Of a stretch of DNA of 64,000 nt, positions 9,198 through 42,589 are shown piece by piece. The notes below the pieces were generated by a model, which had not been told where the DNA came from, did no database searches, and saw only the letters and a program-made list of their open reading frames with translations. A program made the position numbers and the translations under genes. How positions within the stretch are numbered: the first letter of the stretch is position 1; each line of letters opens with the position of its first letter. The DNA is from Halopiger djelfimassiliensis (GTDB taxonomy: Archaea > Halobacteriota > Halobacteria > Halobacteriales > Natrialbaceae), in assembly GCF_000455365.1 (NCBI RefSeq), contig NZ_HG315687.1, forward strand, positions 62,001 through 126,000, written 5' to 3'.

Positions 9198-9220
9198 ACC
9201 CCTTCGTTTCAACTGGAAAC
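9198..9220. repeat. Isolated ORB-like sequence far from the origin
   Basis: ACCCCTTCGTTTCAACTGGA followed by AAC. The first 20 bases are identical to the origin recognition box at 37790 in this window. It stands in the gap between the rhodanese gene and tRNA-Gln, about 28 kb from oriC. Confidence 0.65.
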
Positions 9221-9267
9221 CGGGAGACGACGCTGGCACGGTGCTCGAGTCGAAGGATCGAGAGAAG

Positions 9268-9340
9268 TAGTCCATCCTGGATTCGAACCAGGGTCGAAGC
9301 CCCCAGAAGGCTTCAGGATTGGCCGCTACCCCAATGGACT
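9268..9340 (-). tRNA. tRNA-Gln (anticodon CUG)
   Basis: The 73-nt minus-strand sequence folds as a cloverleaf. The 7-bp acceptor is AGTCCAT/ATGGACT with discriminator A, the anticodon stem is AAGCC/GGCTT with loop TTCTGGG (anticodon CTG), and the T stem is CCTGG/CCAGG with loop TTCGAAT. No CCA is encoded. A TATA-like TTTAT (9369-9373 on the plus strand) lies about 30 bp upstream. In archaea it is charged by GluRS plus the GatDE amidotransferase (established knowledge). Confidence 0.95.
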
Positions 9341-30584: not shown

Positions 30585-31025
30585 ATGAACGTACGGGACG
30601 CACTCGAGGCCGACGCCGACGCGCTGGCGGCGATCGCCGACTCGCCGACCGACGTGATGCGCAATCTCGTCCACGACCGGACGGTACGCGTCGCGGAGGA
30701 CGGGAGCCACGATCCCAACGCCGACGTCTCGAGTTCGCAGTACGACGGCTCCGATCCCGAGGACCTGCTCGGGTTCATCAGTTTCGACGCGCGGGAAGAC
30801 ACCGTTCACGTCACCCAACTTGACGGAACGCCGGAAGCCTGCAAGCGACTCCTCGCGGAACCGGTCCGGTTTGCCGAACGCGAGTCGATGTCCGTCGAAG
30901 TGCTGGTATCGCCAGAGACCGACGCAATCAAAGACGCCGCCGAAGAACTCGGCTTCGAACGGCAGGGGCAAGGGCCGCGGTTCAACGGCGCGCCGACGGT
31001 CCGGTTTCGACTCGAGCCGTCATAG
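30585..31025 (+). CDS. GNAT-type acetyltransferase-like protein
   Basis: 146 aa. It follows the GNAT layout: starts MNVRDALEADADALAAIAD, has strands DLLGFISFDARE and VHVTQLDG, and ends with the beta-hairpin SVEVLVSPETDAIKDAAEELGFERQGQGPRF. The acetyl-CoA pyrophosphate loop (Q/RxxGxG/A) is poorly conserved. It may be an inactive or atypical member. Substrate unknown. Confidence 0.7.
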   Translation: MNVRDALEADADALAAIADSPTDVMRNLVHDRTVRVAEDGSHDPNADVSSSQYDGSDPEDLLGFISFDAREDTVHVTQLDGTPEACKRLLAEPVRFAERESMSVEVLVSPETDAIKDAAEELGFERQGQGPRFNGAPTVRFRLEPS

Positions 31026-31108: not shown

Positions 31109-32740
31109 TCAACTGAACTTCTGGACGGTCACATCCAGCGTATCGAGGTCGACGATCGGCGCGTAGCCGGCGTCGGGGTCGATGTTGACGCTCTTCTGGA
31201 AATCGGTCTGGGCCTGCCAGCAGCCGGAGTTGATCGCGAGCACGCTGTGGTACTTCCCGAAGCCGAGTTTGTGGACGTGGCCAGTATGGAAGATGTCGGG
31301 GACCTCGTCGATCACGAGGTAGTCCTTCTCTTCGGGTGCAAGCCGGGTGTGGCCCCCGAACTGGGGCGCGACGTGGCGCTTTTTGAGCAACTGGTACATC
31401 GCCTTGTGCGGTTCGTCGTAGTTGGCCTTCTCCTCGGGCAGTTCCGCGATCACCTCGTCCAGCGAGACGCCGTGGTACATCAGCACGGACACGCCCTCGA
31501 TCGTCACCGTCGACGGGTTGCTCACGATCCGTGGATCGTGGGCGGACATGATCCCCCTGAGTTCCTCGTCGAACCCCGGCTGGGGTTCAGCGAGCCGGAC
31601 CGCGTCGTGGTTGCCGGGAATCATGACGATCTCGAGGTCGCCGGGGACCCGTTTTAAATGCTCGTTGAAGGCCCGGTACTGGTCGTAGATGTCGATGATG
31701 TCGAGTTCCTCGTCCTGATCGGGGTAGACGCCGACCCCCTCGACCATGTCGCCGCCGATCAGCAGGTACTCGACGTGCTGGGCCTCCTCGGTGTGGAGCC
31801 AGTCGGCAAACCGGTTCCAGGCGTCTTCCATGAACTCCTCGCTGCCGACGTGGACGTCGCTGATCAGCGCCGCCTGAACGTGACGATCCGCCGTCGACGG
31901 CTCGTGGGTCCGGGGAACGTCGGGGAAGTACATCGAGTCGACGAACGCGATCCCCGAATCGTCCGACAGCGTCCCCTCCATCGCCAGCACCTCGTCACAG
32001 AGCAACTCGTCGACCAGCTCGACGTACTCCCGATCCTTCATCACCAGCCACGGAAAGGTCCCCGTGGCGTCCTCGAGTTCGATCAGCCAGTGGCCGCTGG
32101 CCGTCGAACGAACGTCGTTGACGAGACCGACCATCGCGACCTCGCTTCCGCCCGGCATCGACTCGATCGATGTCGCCGGACGGTGATTGACCCGCCCCCG
32201 GAGTTTCGATCCGAGTCGCTCGAGTCGGTCGCGAAAGACCGAGACGAAGTCCTCGTACTCCCCCGTACCCGTACTCTGGCCGGTCATGTCGTTGGCGATC
32301 TCGAGATCTCGCTCCCCGAAACCACCAGTACGGTCGGAGGCCGACCCCTCCGTTTCAACTGGAGATCCCGAACTCGATTCGCCGGCCGTCGCCGTACCGG
32401 TTCCAGTTGAAACGGAGGGGTCTTCCTGCGAAGGGTTGGACTGAACGGCACGATCCGTGGAGGCGGCCGTCTCACCGCCCGTTTCGGGTCCAGTCCCACC
32501 GCCGGAATCGGCGGCCCGTTGCGCGCCGGGTCCGTTCGAACGCCCGGCGGCTTCCGTGAGGACCGCCTCGACGTGTGTCGGACGAACGACCAGCGCGTCC
32601 TCCGGCATTTCCTCGATGACGCGCTCGAGGACGGCGCGGGAGTCGTCTGACGACGCGATCTTCGTTACGGCCTCGCGCTCGGCGTTGTACCCGCGGCTGG
32701 TGAGTTCACTGACGATCCGGGCGGACCCCTCGAGTGGCAC
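31109..32740 (-). CDS. polB: DNA polymerase D small subunit (DP1, exonuclease)
   Basis: 543 aa from a GTG start at 32740 (PLEGSARIVSELTSRGYNAE, the family N-terminus). The ATG frame upstream adds residues not seen in the family. An N-terminal helical domain is followed by an acidic linker (about 68-170). Next come an OB fold (about 195-280) and a metallophosphoesterase domain with DVHVGS (near 293), GGDMVEGV, PGNHDAV, YHGVSLDE and HTGHVHKLG. DP1 is the 3'-5' proofreading subunit of PolD. The linker contains an inverted pair of ORB-like sequences. The DP2 large subunit gene is elsewhere. Confidence 0.94.
   Translation of the reverse strand: MPLEGSARIVSELTSRGYNAEREAVTKIASSDDSRAVLERVIEEMPEDALVVRPTHVEAVLTEAAGRSNGPGAQRAADSGGGTGPETGGETAASTDRAVQSNPSQEDPSVSTGTGTATAGESSSGSPVETEGSASDRTGGFGERDLEIANDMTGQSTGTGEYEDFVSVFRDRLERLGSKLRGRVNHRPATSIESMPGGSEVAMVGLVNDVRSTASGHWLIELEDATGTFPWLVMKDREYVELVDELLCDEVLAMEGTLSDDSGIAFVDSMYFPDVPRTHEPSTADRHVQAALISDVHVGSEEFMEDAWNRFADWLHTEEAQHVEYLLIGGDMVEGVGVYPDQDEELDIIDIYDQYRAFNEHLKRVPGDLEIVMIPGNHDAVRLAEPQPGFDEELRGIMSAHDPRIVSNPSTVTIEGVSVLMYHGVSLDEVIAELPEEKANYDEPHKAMYQLLKKRHVAPQFGGHTRLAPEEKDYLVIDEVPDIFHTGHVHKLGFGKYHSVLAINSGCWQAQTDFQKSVNIDPDAGYAPIVDLDTLDVTVQKFS
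32344..32421. repeat. Inverted pair of ORB-like sequences inside the DP1 gene
   Basis: ACCCCTCCGTTTCAACTGGA (32344-32363) and its inverted partner ending in GAAACGGAGGGGT (32401-32421) are separated by 37 bp. The G-rich ends point outward, the same arrangement as the two ORBs flanking the unwinding region at oriC. On the coding strand they are read as PSVSTG...SPVETEG in the disordered linker. Confidence 0.7.
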
Positions 32741-32882
32741 ACGACTCGCATTCGTGACCGGAGAGAAAAGGCTAGCGAAACCCACGTCGGCCGTTTCGCT
32801 GCACTGCTCGTTGCCAGCCGTCTACGTTTCAGCCGAGAACAAACATCATATTGATCACCGTCGCCGAGAAATCCTTCGACCG

Positions 32883-33791
32883 ATGGGGAGGTCCGACTCC
32901 GATTCCCGCGGGGCTTCCGCGGCCGACGATAGAGAGAACCGCTCCGATGCGGAGATCGATCCGCGGACCGAAACCGGTGACGGCCCGGCCACGTCCGACG
33001 CTTCCGGGCGCGGTTCGGCCTCGAGAAGCGAGACGACGGAAAACGGCGACAGGGAGACGGTCACGATCGAGGACGACGGTATCGTCCGCTGGTTCCTCCG
33101 GAGCGAAGACGACACCGTCGTCGTGGCCCGGGATGTCCTCAGCGGCGTCGCCCTCGTTGTAGTGCTCGGCCTCGTGCTCTTCGCCATCAGCGGCATCTGG
33201 CCGCCGCTGGTCGTCATCGAAAGCCCGAGTATGACACCGAATATGCAAACGGGCGACCTCGTCTTCGTCGTCGACGACGACCGGTTCGTCGGGGACGATC
33301 ACGTGGACGGAACGGGTATCGTCCCGCGCGAGAACGGCGTTGAGACCGGCCACGAGAAGTTCGGCGATCCTGGCGACGTCATCGTCTTCAAGCCCGACGG
33401 AAGCGAGTCCCGGACGCCGGTGATCCATCGGGCACACTTCTGGGTCGAGGAGGGCGAAAACTGGGTGGAAACCAAGGCCGATCCTGTCGCCGTCGACGGC
33501 CGTACCTGCGACGAACTGGCGGCGTGTCCGGCCCCTCACGACGGGTTCGTTACCAAAGGGGATGCCAACGGGGGCTACGATCAGCTTCCGAACCGCGGGG
33601 CGGAGACCACCGTCATCAAACCCGAGTGGGTGACGGGAAAAGCGATGGTCCGGGCACCGTGGATCGGCTACCTCCGCCTGACGGTCGAGTCGAAGTTGTC
33701 CGCGATGGGACCGTCCACGCCGGCGGCCGGCCCCCTCGAGACCGGACGCGTCACCGCATCGGGGCCCGGGATCGCTTCGACCGCGATGTAA
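32883..33791 (+). CDS. Type I signal peptidase (archaeal Sec11-like), copy 1
   Basis: 302 aa. Acidic disordered N-terminus (1-60), a membrane segment near residues 86-106 (SGVALVVVLGLVLFAISGIW), and then the catalytic domain. Ser116 lies in SPSM and His182 in PVIHRA, in place of the bacterial Lys; Asp227 (TKGDANGG) completes the archaeal Ser-His-Asp set. It cleaves Sec signal peptides outside the membrane. A hydrophobic C-terminal end is absent (unlike copy 2). It has an almost identical 95-bp tract in the next gene. Confidence 0.9.
   Translation: MGRSDSDSRGASAADDRENRSDAEIDPRTETGDGPATSDASGRGSASRSETTENGDRETVTIEDDGIVRWFLRSEDDTVVVARDVLSGVALVVVLGLVLFAISGIWPPLVVIESPSMTPNMQTGDLVFVVDDDRFVGDDHVDGTGIVPRENGVETGHEKFGDPGDVIVFKPDGSESRTPVIHRAHFWVEEGENWVETKADPVAVDGRTCDELAACPAPHDGFVTKGDANGGYDQLPNRGAETTVIKPEWVTGKAMVRAPWIGYLRLTVESKLSAMGPSTPAAGPLETGRVTASGPGIASTAM
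33372..33466 (+). repeat. 95-bp tract nearly identical between the two signal peptidase genes (copy 1)
   Basis: It matches 34303-34397 with only two differing bases (GAGTCC versus GAATAC). It spans the catalytic His. The surrounding coding sequences are much less alike, which suggests gene conversion or very strong constraint. Confidence 0.75.
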
Positions 33792-33846
33792 TCGCTTCCC
33801 CCCGAGAGCAGAAAGTTGATTTCCCGGCCTCGCAAAACGGGTGACG

Positions 33847-34812
33847 ATGAGCGGTTCCAATCCCGGTGATCCGGCTGATGATCCTGACGGCGGCGGACAC
33901 GGACGCGACGGCCGTGATCATCAGGAGCGGACCACCGGTAGCGAACGAAACCCACCCGAGCGGTCGACGGAGGCCGCCGAGTCGAGTACTGTGACGATCG
34001 AGGACGACGGGGTCGTCCGCTGGTTCCTGCGGACCGAGGACGACACCGTCGTCGTGGTCCGGGACGTCCTCAGCAGCGTCGCTCTCGTCGCGGTGCTCGG
34101 GCTCGTACTCTTTGCCGTCAGCGGCATCTGGCCGCCACTGGTCGCCGTCGAGAGCGGCAGCATGGAGCCCAACATGGAGCGTGGGGATCTCATTTTCGTC
34201 GTCGACAACGGTCGGTTCGTCGGGGACGGTCCCGTCGACGGGACGGGCATCGTTACCCGCGAAAGCGGCGCGGAGACCGGCCACGAGAAGTTCGGCAACC
34301 CGGGCGACGTCATCGTCTTCAAGCCCGACGGAAGCGAATACCGGACGCCGGTGATCCATCGGGCACACTTCTGGGTCGAGGAGGGCGAAAACTGGGTCGA
34401 CACGAAAGCCAACGAGGAGTACGTCGGCGGAGCCACCTGTACCGAGGTCCAAACCTGTCCCGCCGAGTACGACGGGTTCATCACGAAAGGGGACGACAAC
34501 CCGGGCTACGATCAGGTCAGGGGCGGTGCGAAAACCGACGTCGTGAAACCCGAGTGGATCACGGGGAAAGCGATGGTCCGGATCCCGTGGCTCGGCCACA
34601 TCCGGCTGACGTTCGACAAAGTCATCGGCGGCATGGTAGTCCCGACGCCATCTCCGACGCCGGGAATCGGCGGGGCGACTGCAGCCGGTTCGAGTCCGTC
34701 CGCCGGACCGACCGAGACCGCCGGCGTCTCCGGACTCACGGGAGTCGCCACGGGAGTAAGCGCAGGCCTCGGTGCCGGCGTCGCACTCACCGGCCGCCGA
34801 TACCGGAACTGA
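33847..34812 (+). CDS. Type I signal peptidase (archaeal Sec11-like), copy 2
   Basis: 321 aa, close paralogue of the preceding gene. Ser105 (SGSM), His171 (PVIHRA) and Asp216 (TKGDDNPG) are intact. The C-terminus is longer, with a Ser/Thr/Pro/Gly-rich segment and a Gly-rich stretch ending TGRRYRN. ATG 33847 is used; GTG at 33841 is an alternative. Tandem orientation with 55 bp between genes suggests recent duplication. Specialisation for different substrates is a guess. Confidence 0.9.
   Translation: MSGSNPGDPADDPDGGGHGRDGRDHQERTTGSERNPPERSTEAAESSTVTIEDDGVVRWFLRTEDDTVVVVRDVLSSVALVAVLGLVLFAVSGIWPPLVAVESGSMEPNMERGDLIFVVDNGRFVGDGPVDGTGIVTRESGAETGHEKFGNPGDVIVFKPDGSEYRTPVIHRAHFWVEEGENWVDTKANEEYVGGATCTEVQTCPAEYDGFITKGDDNPGYDQVRGGAKTDVVKPEWITGKAMVRIPWLGHIRLTFDKVIGGMVVPTPSPTPGIGGATAAGSSPSAGPTETAGVSGLTGVATGVSAGLGAGVALTGRRYRN
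34303..34397 (+). repeat. 95-bp tract nearly identical between the two signal peptidase genes (copy 2)
   Basis: Partner of 33372-33466; two differing bases in 95. It encodes the segment around His171 of the second signal peptidase. Confidence 0.75.
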
Positions 34813-35562: not shown

Positions 35563-37335
35563 TCAGTTCTCGAACCGTGCCTGTACGAACGGCTGGATGT
35601 CGTCGATGTCGCTCAGCCGGGAATCGGACAACAGGACCGCCTCGGTCTCCTCGAGCGGGACCGAGAGACTGATCTCCTTGGTACGGCCGTACCGCCCCTT
35701 CGAGACGACGACGGCGTTGACGATCCCGAGCATGTCCAGTTCGCTGATCAGGTCCGTGACCCGCCGCTGGGTCAGAACGTCCGCGTCGATCTCTTCACAG
35801 AGGCGCTTGTAGATGTTGAAGACCTCGCCCGTGTTGATGCTGTGAACCCCGTTTTTCTCGAGCAGGATGATCGCAAAGAGGACGAGTTTGCTCTGGGTGG
35901 GGAGCGTCCGGACGACCTCGACGACCCGGTCGAGTTCGATCTTGTCCTGGGCCTGCCGGACGTGTTCCTCGACGATCGTCTCGGACTGGGACCGCTCGGC
36001 CAGCTCGCCAGCGGTCCGAAGCAGATCGAGCGCACGGCGCGCATCCCCGTGTTCCTGTGCGGCGAACGCGGCACACAGCGGAATCACGTCGTCCGAGAGC
36101 GCGCCCTCCTTGAACGCGACCTCCGATCGATGTTTCAGGATGTCCCGGAGCTGGTTGGCGTCGTAGGGCGGGAAGACGATCTCCTCCTCGCCCAGCGAGG
36201 ATTTGACCCGGGGGTCGAGGAAGTCGGTGAATTTGAGGTCGTTCGAGATACCGATGATCGACACCCGCGAGTTCTCGAGTTCGGAGTTCATCCGCGAGAG
36301 ATTGTACAGGGTATCGTCGCCGCTTTTCTCGACGAGTTTGTCGATCTCGTCTAACATGATGACGACGACCCGTTCGTCGTAGTCGACCGCATCGAAGAAG
36401 ACGCTGTAGACTCGATCGGTCGGCCAGCCGGTCATCGGAACTTCCTCGAACGATTCCTTGTCCTCCTCGAGCGTCTCGATCCGTTCCTCGAGATCGCTGC
36501 GGGTCTCGAAGGGAGTCGACTCGAGCGGATGGTCCGGTGGAAGGGCGGTTTCGGCGGGGGACTCGGGGTCGGTTTCACCCGACCCGTCGACGCTCGAGTC
36601 CGAATCATCGGCCGACGAATACCCCTCCGTTTCGACTGGAGAACCGCCGTGCTGCGGACCGATTTCGTCTCCAGTTGAACCGGAGCCGTCGGCATCGGTT
36701 GGCTCATCGTCACCGGCCCCATCGAGGCCGTCCGAACCGGAAAGGTCGTCCTCGAGCGTCTCGAAGAGATCGGCCTCGTCCTCTCCGGTAGCGGCCGAGC
36801 CATCGGATGAATCCTCGTAGTCCTCGAGGGACGACAGGAGGTCCTCGAGCGTCTCGATCCGATCGTCGATCCGACTCTTGTTTTTCTCGATGAACTTGTT
36901 AGCGAGTTGCGCCAGAACGCGATACTGCGTGTCGGTCACCTCGCAGTTGATGTACTCGACGTCACAGGGGACGCTGTACTTCTGGGAGGTACTCTCGAGT
37001 TCCTTGCTGACGAACTTCGCGCTGGCCGTCTTTCCCGTCCCCGTTTTGCCGTAGATGAGGATGTTCGACGGCGTTTCACCGCGGAGCGCGGCGACGAGGA
37101 TCGTCGCCATCTTGTTGATCTGATCGCTCCGGTGTGGGAGTTCGTGTGGCGTATAGGACGGACGCAACACTTCCTTGTTCTCGAAGATCGGTTCCCCGCT
37201 GAGCAGATCGTCGAACAGTCCCTGATTTGACTCCTCGTCGCCGAGGTCGTCACTACCGAAGTCCGTCGAGAATCCGTGTGTTTCGTCTCCCCTGACGTCT
37301 TCCGAACCCGGGGGGTTCCCGTCGTCGTCTGACAT
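35563..37335 (-). CDS. orc1: Orc1/Cdc6 replication initiator next to oriC
   Basis: 590 aa, AAA+ plus winged helix. Walker A GKTGTGKT (96-103), Walker B MLDEID near 328-333 and sensor 1 around SIIGISND. The C-terminal winged-helix domain (about 500-590) reads ORBs. An acidic insertion of about 120 residues (165-285) separates the two parts of the AAA+ domain. It contains ORB-like DNA at 36621-36688. ATG 37335 (MSDDDG) is preferred; the frame also opens at 37350. Orc1 binds the ORBs and loads MCM. It is transcribed away from the origin, probably from a promoter inside it. Confidence 0.96.
   Translation of the reverse strand: MSDDDGNPPGSEDVRGDETHGFSTDFGSDDLGDEESNQGLFDDLLSGEPIFENKEVLRPSYTPHELPHRSDQINKMATILVAALRGETPSNILIYGKTGTGKTASAKFVSKELESTSQKYSVPCDVEYINCEVTDTQYRVLAQLANKFIEKNKSRIDDRIETLEDLLSSLEDYEDSSDGSAATGEDEADLFETLEDDLSGSDGLDGAGDDEPTDADGSGSTGDEIGPQHGGSPVETEGYSSADDSDSSVDGSGETDPESPAETALPPDHPLESTPFETRSDLEERIETLEEDKESFEEVPMTGWPTDRVYSVFFDAVDYDERVVVIMLDEIDKLVEKSGDDTLYNLSRMNSELENSRVSIIGISNDLKFTDFLDPRVKSSLGEEEIVFPPYDANQLRDILKHRSEVAFKEGALSDDVIPLCAAFAAQEHGDARRALDLLRTAGELAERSQSETIVEEHVRQAQDKIELDRVVEVVRTLPTQSKLVLFAIILLEKNGVHSINTGEVFNIYKRLCEEIDADVLTQRRVTDLISELDMLGIVNAVVVSKGRYGRTKEISLSVPLEETEAVLLSDSRLSDIDDIQPFVQARFEN
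36621..36688. repeat. Inverted pair of ORB-like sequences inside the orc1 gene
   Basis: ACCCCTCCGTTTCGACTGGA (36621-36640) and the degenerate partner CTCCAGTTGAACCGGAGCCG (36669-36688) are separated by 28 bp, G-rich ends outward. They encode STG...SPVETEG in the acidic insertion, the same peptide ends as the pair in DP1. Confidence 0.65.
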
Positions 37336-37348
37336 TCGTCGTACACGC

Positions 37349-37370
37349 ACCCCTTCGTTTCAGGTGGAAG
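37349..37370 (-). promoter_or_regulatory. Origin recognition box, variant, beside orc1 start
   Basis: ACCCCTTCGTTTCAGGTGGA plus AG. It differs from the other origin ORBs at two positions (GG for AC). It overlaps the likely orc1 promoter region, so it may also let Orc1 repress its own gene (inference). Confidence 0.75.
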
Positions 37371-37776: not shown

Positions 37777-37840
37777 ACCCCCCTCCCCCACCCCTTCGTT
37801 TCAACTGGAACGGTCGAACGGATGGGGTGGGGGAGGGGGT
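37777..37840. promoter_or_regulatory. ORB within a G/C-rich inverted repeat
   Basis: The ORB ACCCCTTCGTTTCAACTGGA (37790-37809) begins inside the left arm (37777-37794, A-C6-T-C5-A-C4). A nearly perfect right arm (37824-37840, G4-T-G5-A-G5-T) follows 29 bp later. This gives the ORB G-strings on both sides and could form a cruciform or a G-quadruplex. Confidence 0.8.
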
Positions 37841-38094: not shown

Positions 38095-38120
38095 TCCAGT
38101 TGAAACGAAGGGGTGGGGGG
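38095..38120 (+). promoter_or_regulatory. Origin recognition box with G-string
   Basis: TCCAGTTGAAACGAAGGGGT followed by six G (38115-38120). It is the inverted counterpart of the ORB at 37790, with its G-string pointing away from the AT-rich segment. Confidence 0.85.
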
Positions 38121-41845: not shown

Positions 41846-42424
41846 TTAGAATTCGGTTTCGACGGTTCCGTTTTCGTTCAGGTCGATCACGCCGTCGAAG
41901 CGTTCGCGGAAGTCGTCGACGAGCGACCCGTCGTGGGGTTCCTCGGAGAGATGAAAGAGACCGACGGCGTCGTGTTCTTCGAGGAGTTCGAGAATCCGTT
42001 CGACGGCCTCGAGTGCCGCGTCGTCGCCGGCGTAGTAGGCGAGTTCGGTCACGGAGTCGAAACTGAGCCGGAGCTTGCCGTCGTTGTCCGCCAGAAAGCC
42101 GTCGATATGGTCGACGATGCCGTCGACGTCGTCGGGTGCGGCGACGTAGTGGACGGTATCGCTCGAGCGTCGGGAGTAGCCCCGTTCGATGCTCAGCGTA
42201 TCGAGGATCTCGGCGCGCTCCTCGTCGACGTCGTAGTGTTCGAGTTTCTGTTTGACTTCACGAGCGGTCGTTCGGGTCGAGACGACGAGGAAATTGTCGG
42301 TGTCGGTCTTGAGAAAGTCGGTGTCGATGCGGTCGGTTTCCCCCGTGCTCGGATGAAGCAGGAGAATCCCCGTCCCACCGGGGACCGTCTCCGGCGTGTC
42401 GTCGATCTCGAGCCTGTAGTCCAT
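41846..42424 (-). CDS. Degenerate KaiC/RecA-like haloarchaeal protein
   Basis: 192 aa. It begins MDYRLEIDDTPETVPGGTGI, with a strand-loop like a KaiC start (PGGTGILLLHPSTGETDRID) but no Walker A lysine. The later segments NFLVVSTRTTAREVKQKLEHYDV and LRLSFDSVTELAYYAGDD resemble RecA-fold strands. This suggests an inactive RecA-fold protein of the DUF7090 type (family name recalled, not verified). Start 42424; the longer frame passes through repeats. Confidence 0.6.
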   Translation of the reverse strand: MDYRLEIDDTPETVPGGTGILLLHPSTGETDRIDTDFLKTDTDNFLVVSTRTTAREVKQKLEHYDVDEERAEILDTLSIERGYSRRSSDTVHYVAAPDDVDGIVDHIDGFLADNDGKLRLSFDSVTELAYYAGDDAALEAVERILELLEEHDAVGLFHLSEEPHDGSLVDDFRERFDGVIDLNENGTVETEF

Positions 42425-42566
42425 ATTGCCGTGAACAACTTCCGGCACTGACTTAATAGTGCGGATGTCGGTGAGTTCACGCCGGTCCGGGCGGCTCGGC
42501 TCACCGTCCGTCCCCTTCCTACGTCCCACTTCGGTTCCAGTCACCCACCCGGGATCGCGGGAACGA

Positions 42567-42589
42567 ACCCCTCCGGTTCCAGTGGAACC
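42567..42589. repeat. ORB-like sequence between two genes
   Basis: ACCCCTCCGGTTCCAGTGGA plus ACC, resembling the archaeal ORB (the GTTCCAGTGGAA form is near the general archaeal consensus). It is 4.5 kb right of the origin, with a weaker neighbour at about 42521-42543. Confidence 0.5.

Follow-up and report, generated by a model that had tools for sequence, protein, structure and literature searches.

The question raised by this stretch of the Halopiger djelfimassiliensis genome (the window, 64,000 nucleotides of contig NZ_HG315687.1) is why the gene for DP1, the small subunit of DNA polymerase D (PolD), should carry an inverted pair of origin recognition boxes (ORBs), the sites of the initiator Orc1/Cdc6, within its coding sequence, and what holds them there. 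Judged from codon usage, the boxes are maintained by selection on the DNA and not on the encoded peptide. The reading favoured here, with a probability of roughly 0.55, is that the pair constitutes a conserved intragenic Orc1-binding satellite of the main origin oriC1, which restrains or tunes initiation. The features concerned are the following.

31109-32785 (minus strand): DP1, small (exonuclease) subunit of DNA polymerase D, with the probable true start at GTG 32740 (NCBIfam NF003116, E 1.9e-293; Pfam PF04042/PF00149)
32402-32421 (plus strand): ORB-type box TCCAGTTGAAACGGAGGGGT, 5'-proximal in the DP1 gene, whose coding strand is the reverse complement and reads D-P-S-V-S-T-G (from DP1 homologues)
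32344-32363 (minus strand): ORB-type box TCCAGTTGAAACGGAGGGGT as read on the minus strand, 3'-proximal in the DP1 gene, encoding S-P-V-E-T-E-G (from DP1 homologues)
32364-32401: spacer of the pair, 38 bp, 68% GC, kept in length (38 or 35 bp) and not in sequence

An earlier note on this DNA had described two facing, nearly perfect origin boxes 37 bp apart in the DP1 linker with the reading frame kept. Both boxes are in fact exactly TCCAGTTGAAACGGAGGGGT, forming a perfect 20-nt inverted pair, and the gap between them is 38 bp; the location in the variable linker of DP1 and the open frame across both boxes (DPSVSTGTGTATAGESSSGSPVETEGS) were as described. The probable start of the gene was assigned from homologues that have a stop just upstream of the residues VPLE. 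A number of DP1 genes show a TGA in frame, which in the four examined lies upstream of the start at VPLE. Both boxes match the ORB consensus (about TCCASNNGAAACNRAGGGGT) completely, including the G-string, and they differ by a single base from each of the genome's own oriC1 ORBs at 37790 (minus) and 38095 (plus), 5 kb away. Furthermore, their invariant and variable positions are those of 146 oriC1-region ORBs from 48 genomes, a comparison set that was itself picked by consensus.

To follow the distribution of the pair, 194 genomes of the order were scanned for the motif and searched for DP1, and DP1 loci of ten families were retrieved. The pair is present at the same linker position, with no more than 8 mismatches in 40, in 85 of 89 loci (no more than 6 in 81), and at least one box with two or fewer mismatches occurs in 87, while a reversed consensus never came below 11 mismatches over the pair and gave no such single box. 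The spacing from start to start among the 85 pairs is 58 bp (74 loci), 55 bp (10) or 70 bp (1), and the codon phase of the boxes is constant among the pairs examined. Counted from where the matched DP1 frame starts, the pair is reached after 217 to 403 nt, so that the length of the linker drifts while the geometry of the pair is fixed. Genome-wide, 101 of the 194 genomes contain the pair pattern, each of them once, apart from one with two copies owing to a DP1 locus that had been assembled twice. All the listed cases that were compared with known coordinates of DP1 fall within the gene; the reversed control gave none. A strict version of the pattern, run against 84,980 prokaryote species, returned 64 stretches, every one of them haloarchaeal and in DP1, with spacers of only 38 bp (54) or 35 bp (10); in one of these, from a metagenome-assembled genome, a stop codon separates the pair from the matched DP1 region. 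No such pair was present in the DP1 of 20 non-haloarchaeal Halobacteriota, and a looser pair pattern matched 8 viral contigs, about the number expected by chance on an order-of-magnitude estimate. A lone ORB-like box, TGCAGTGGAAATRGAGGGGG, is shared by three methanogens of one family (L137, L139 and L143) at a single DP1 position in what is apparently the folded domain, perhaps owing to conservation at the protein level.

The codons of the boxes reveal at which level this conservation operates. When codons were resampled synonymously at the usage of the respective gene (77 genomes, 2000 resamplings per gene), 10.6 mismatches to the ORB consensus were expected, compared with 2.2 observed, and in 76 of the 77 genomes none of the 2000 resamplings equalled the observed match. 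Codons that are scarce in the gene as a whole are fixed within the boxes: proline is CCA in 67 of 67 cases (10% gene-wide), valine GTT in 58 of 58 (9%), threonine ACT in 57 of 57 (9%), glycine GGA in 61 of 61 (12%) and glutamate GAA in 77 of 77 (31%); where a residue has been exchanged for alanine, the last base of the codon is retained (GCA or GCT). The GC content at third codon positions is 0.47 within the boxes and 0.86 elsewhere in the gene. When genomes are compared two by two, third positions agree in 79% and 84% of pairs for the two boxes, above the first and second positions, and drop to the chance level of 28-35% in the spacer and flanks; the folded end of DP1 has the opposite pattern, 65% identity at third vs 89% at first and second positions. 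One box position is occupied by Lys (30 genomes), Glu (28) or Gly (13) with the ORB preserved, such that the charge of the protein is free there. The DP1 linker clearly illustrates how an overlapping DNA site can dictate the sequence of a protein linker.

Three explanations that dispense with an initiator site can be set against these observations. According to one of them, the linker peptides PSVSTG and SPVETEG are kept for the function of the protein and their likeness to ORBs is incidental, for which it may be said that they are conserved in DP1 and that one recurs in the linker of Orc1. That synonymous positions are the most conserved, that rare codons are fixed and that E/K/G exchanges are tolerated leaves this explanation hardly any credibility, and the codon evidence rules out peptide-level conservation as the cause of the boxes. 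Single boxes call for more caution, as ORB-like matches in mannose-1-phosphate guanylyltransferase (peptide AVETEG) indicate that a lone box in a folded protein can stem from protein conservation; single-box matches were for this reason left out as evidence. The mobile palindrome tolerating translation that the earlier note had envisaged would fit a perfect inverted repeat lying in frame in a disordered linker. The note had named an insertion in only some strains as a sign of it, and presence at one linker position throughout the haloarchaea as a sign against it; the latter is largely what is seen. Such palindromes are familiar from the Rickettsia palindromic elements, which sit in coding regions with the frame kept and are similar in logic; they are dispersed multicopy insertions, whereas the DP1 pair is a conserved site at a single locus. 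With one pair per genome, always in DP1 and largely throughout the haloarchaea, neither dispersal nor presence and absence is seen, and the genome-wide counts rule a mobile or dispersed repeat out. The mutual complementarity of the boxes would also permit an RNA hairpin in the DP1 mRNA, with a 20-bp stem and a 38-nt loop in the present genome. Yet several genomes have only one intact box, and the arms do not covary (16.49 of 20 positions pair within genomes vs 16.43 after shuffling between genomes), which leaves next to no probability for a hairpin.

What remains is a DNA site, and its surroundings point to the initiator. The window holds the haloarchaeal main origin locus: two inverted ORBs lie upstream of orc1, and a gene for an era-like GTPase is located on the opposite side, in agreement with the published oriC1 context gbp-ORBs-cdc6-sec-polymerase (PMC4010727).

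35563-37350 (minus strand): orc1, initiator gene of oriC1 (NF001625 / TIGR02928, Cdc6_C)
37790-37809 (minus strand): oriC1 ORB, one arm of the inverted pair
38095-38114 (plus strand): oriC1 ORB, the other arm

Nine ORB matches with up to three mismatches lie in the window, compared with 0.01 expected by chance, and the whole 3.78-Mb genome contains 11, nine of them between 9198 and 42586 of the window around oriC1; the reversed pattern has no match in the 3.78-Mb genome. The layout is fixed and recurs in relatives, with two inverted ORBs upstream of orc1, in many cases another where orc1 starts, in one family a further box within the Orc1 linker and, lastly, the pair in DP1. In these relatives orc1 and DP1 are mostly separated by 2-5 kb; several genomes have 14-37 kb between them, and a single one has 194 kb. 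Since the orc1-DP1 neighbourhood is also found in related methanogens, the pair was probably gained within a neighbourhood that was already old.

In its 20-bp box, inverted orientation and chromosomal neighbourhood, the DP1 pair is like the ORBs of haloarchaeal oriC1, which are Orc1/Cdc6 sites with a G-string (PMC3528665, PMC4010727). It differs from them in its place inside a coding sequence, in the lack of an AT-rich unwinding element between the boxes, and in its distance of 38 or 35 bp, the boxes of oriC1 pairs being roughly 170-330 bp apart at most loci seen here. The idea in the earlier note that the arrangement copies the core of oriC is right as to orientation, with the G-strings outward, and wrong as to the interval, which at oriC1 of this genome spans 285 bp at 50% GC vs 38 bp at 68% GC in DP1. 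A functional second origin was set aside as unlikely on this account: the inverted ORBs are present, but the AT-rich element is absent, whereas the oriC1 interval has a stretch of 32% GC nearby. 

The nearest precedent to have been tested is oriC2D of Haloarcula hispanica, an ORB-rich region downstream of cdc6E, which is inactive as an origin and keeps oriC2 repressed, likely through titration of Cdc6E (PMC3936714). Like the DP1 pair, oriC2D comprises ORBs that are separate from the origin and lie past the initiator gene as seen from it; it has 11 of them in a 722-bp intergenic region and belongs to the oriC2/Cdc6E system, whereas the DP1 pair consists of two ORBs of fixed geometry in a coding sequence, belongs to the oriC1 system and is conserved across the order. 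In E. coli a conserved region of high DnaA-box density near oriC has been reported along with evidence that it titrates DnaA, and together with datA and DARS it shares with the DP1 pair the principle of initiator sites outside the origin, conserved in location, that tune initiator availability (PMC12371093). There, on the other hand, the initiator is the bacterial DnaA, a different protein, and datA and DARS are described as non-coding.

Along these lines, Orc1 very probably binds the DP1 boxes; the earlier suggestion of an Orc1-binding decoy holds in kind, given the match to the oriC1 ORBs and the conservation at the DNA level, with binding itself a prediction. Two Orc1 monomers would occupy the pair with their G-strings outward as at oriC1, and lacking an unwinding element between the boxes, the pair should not fire. 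As DP1 is usually only 2-37 kb from orc1 and oriC1, the pair would be duplicated soon after oriC1 fires; by binding Orc1 it would then limit, through passive titration, or switch, in a datA/DARS-like complex, the supply of Orc1 for re-initiation. A titration or switch role of this kind has close to an even chance of being correct. A spacing as rigid as this points to a defined Orc1 complex more than to a passive sink, and a datA/DARS-like assembly of two Orc1 molecules at fixed geometry, switching or sequestering the initiator after oriC1 has fired and linking initiation control to the PolD gene, would account for it; we put this more specific form forward tentatively.

The satellite reading agrees with the location, as ORBs free of an unwinding element lie outside the origin and near the initiator gene, in the manner of oriC2D, and form part of the orc1/oriC1 locus 5 kb from oriC1. 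Several observations weigh against it. Two boxes in DP1, plus one or two in the Orc1 coding sequence of one family, stand against the 11 of oriC2D; two sites are few for passive titration, which by itself would not require fixed spacing. The pair occurs only in DP1 and never elsewhere near oriC1, which a DP1-specific role explains equally well. One or both boxes have been lost in some lineages, and among a further 21 loci, mostly picked from divergent lineages, the pair was present in 9. Proximity to oriC1 is usual and not strict: one genome (G076; loci L258 and L259) has 194 kb between DP1 and orc1 and still carries an intact pair, while its ORBs upstream of orc1 appear degraded. A sister species (L127) is likewise devoid of strong ORBs upstream of orc1.

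These points lead to the explanations that accept a DNA-level site and assign it another role. The earlier note had considered a regulatory site for polB; the gene is DP1 of PolD, and regulation of a polymerase gene can still be entertained in the form of Orc1 bound as a roadblock or internal operator some 200-400 nt into the gene, coupling synthesis of the small subunit to the supply of free initiator. Restriction of the pair to DP1, with which it stays when the gene is far from orc1, speaks for this proposal. The distance from the gene start, however, varies by nearly 200 nt at fixed mutual spacing, and the single ORB in the orc1 coding sequence of one family suits a more general role of Orc1 sites, so that regulation of DP1 is considered unlikely. 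An architectural role, in which a loop is closed by Orc1 molecules sitting at DP1 and oriC1, or the pair serves as a second site of helicase loading or pausing, would be in line with the shared box orientation and the usual 2-37 kb between DP1 and orc1. It is rendered rather improbable by the GC-rich spacer without an unwinding element and by a distance to oriC1 that ranges widely, up to 194 kb. Finally, a different factor sharing the ORB motif might bind the boxes, which is very doubtful in view of a motif that is the oriC1 ORB itself, with its halophile-type G-string, and whose matches cluster around oriC1.

No report of ORBs within DP1 (polD1) was found in the open-access papers searched. 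To our knowledge, no intragenic site of initiator control of such a kind has been described in Archaea. The origin survey of PMC3528665 covered only intergenic regions next to orc genes and would thus have missed a pair inside DP1. Little is understood of how archaea keep their origins from re-initiating, and a pair that can be destroyed by synonymous mutation, with oriC1 and the DP1 protein untouched, provides a clean handle on this process in genetically tractable haloarchaea.

The other ORBs of the window are listed below.

36621-36640 (minus strand): ORB TCCAGTCGAAACGGAGGGGT within the stretch coding for the Orc1 linker, where it specifies SPVETEG, the peptide also found in DP1
36670-36689 (plus strand): degenerate inverted partner of the Orc1-linker box, 3 mismatches, at 49 bp
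37349-37368 (minus strand): ORB at the orc1 start, found at the same place in many relatives
9198-9217 (minus strand): intergenic ORB identical to the oriC1 ORBs, beside tRNA-Gln (9267-9340), 28 kb from oriC1
42567-42586 (minus strand): weaker ORB with 3 mismatches, immediately before the start of the gene 41846-42544 (minus strand), a possible promoter site

Most relatives within the family share the Orc1-linker box, which is constrained at the codon level as well (0.78 mismatches observed vs 4.74 under synonymous resampling). The oriC1 ORB at 37790 is flanked by a G-rich inverted repeat (about 37778-37794 and 37823-37839) that resembles the replication enhancer of Haloarcula hispanica oriC1 (PMC3936714). 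Two tandem, similar genes of the signal-peptidase-like S26 type (32883-33791 and 33841-34812, plus strand) lie between DP1 and orc1. In one genus of family f11 (L046, L048, L049, L050, L051 and similar loci), an extra strong ORB is situated approximately 1.6-1.8 kb from the DP1 start, near the end of the gene. In another genus of this family (L184-L188), an ORB is found at the 3' end of a gene some 50-66 kb from DP1, which in L184 is homologous to 30585-31025 of the window, the neighbour of DP1 here.
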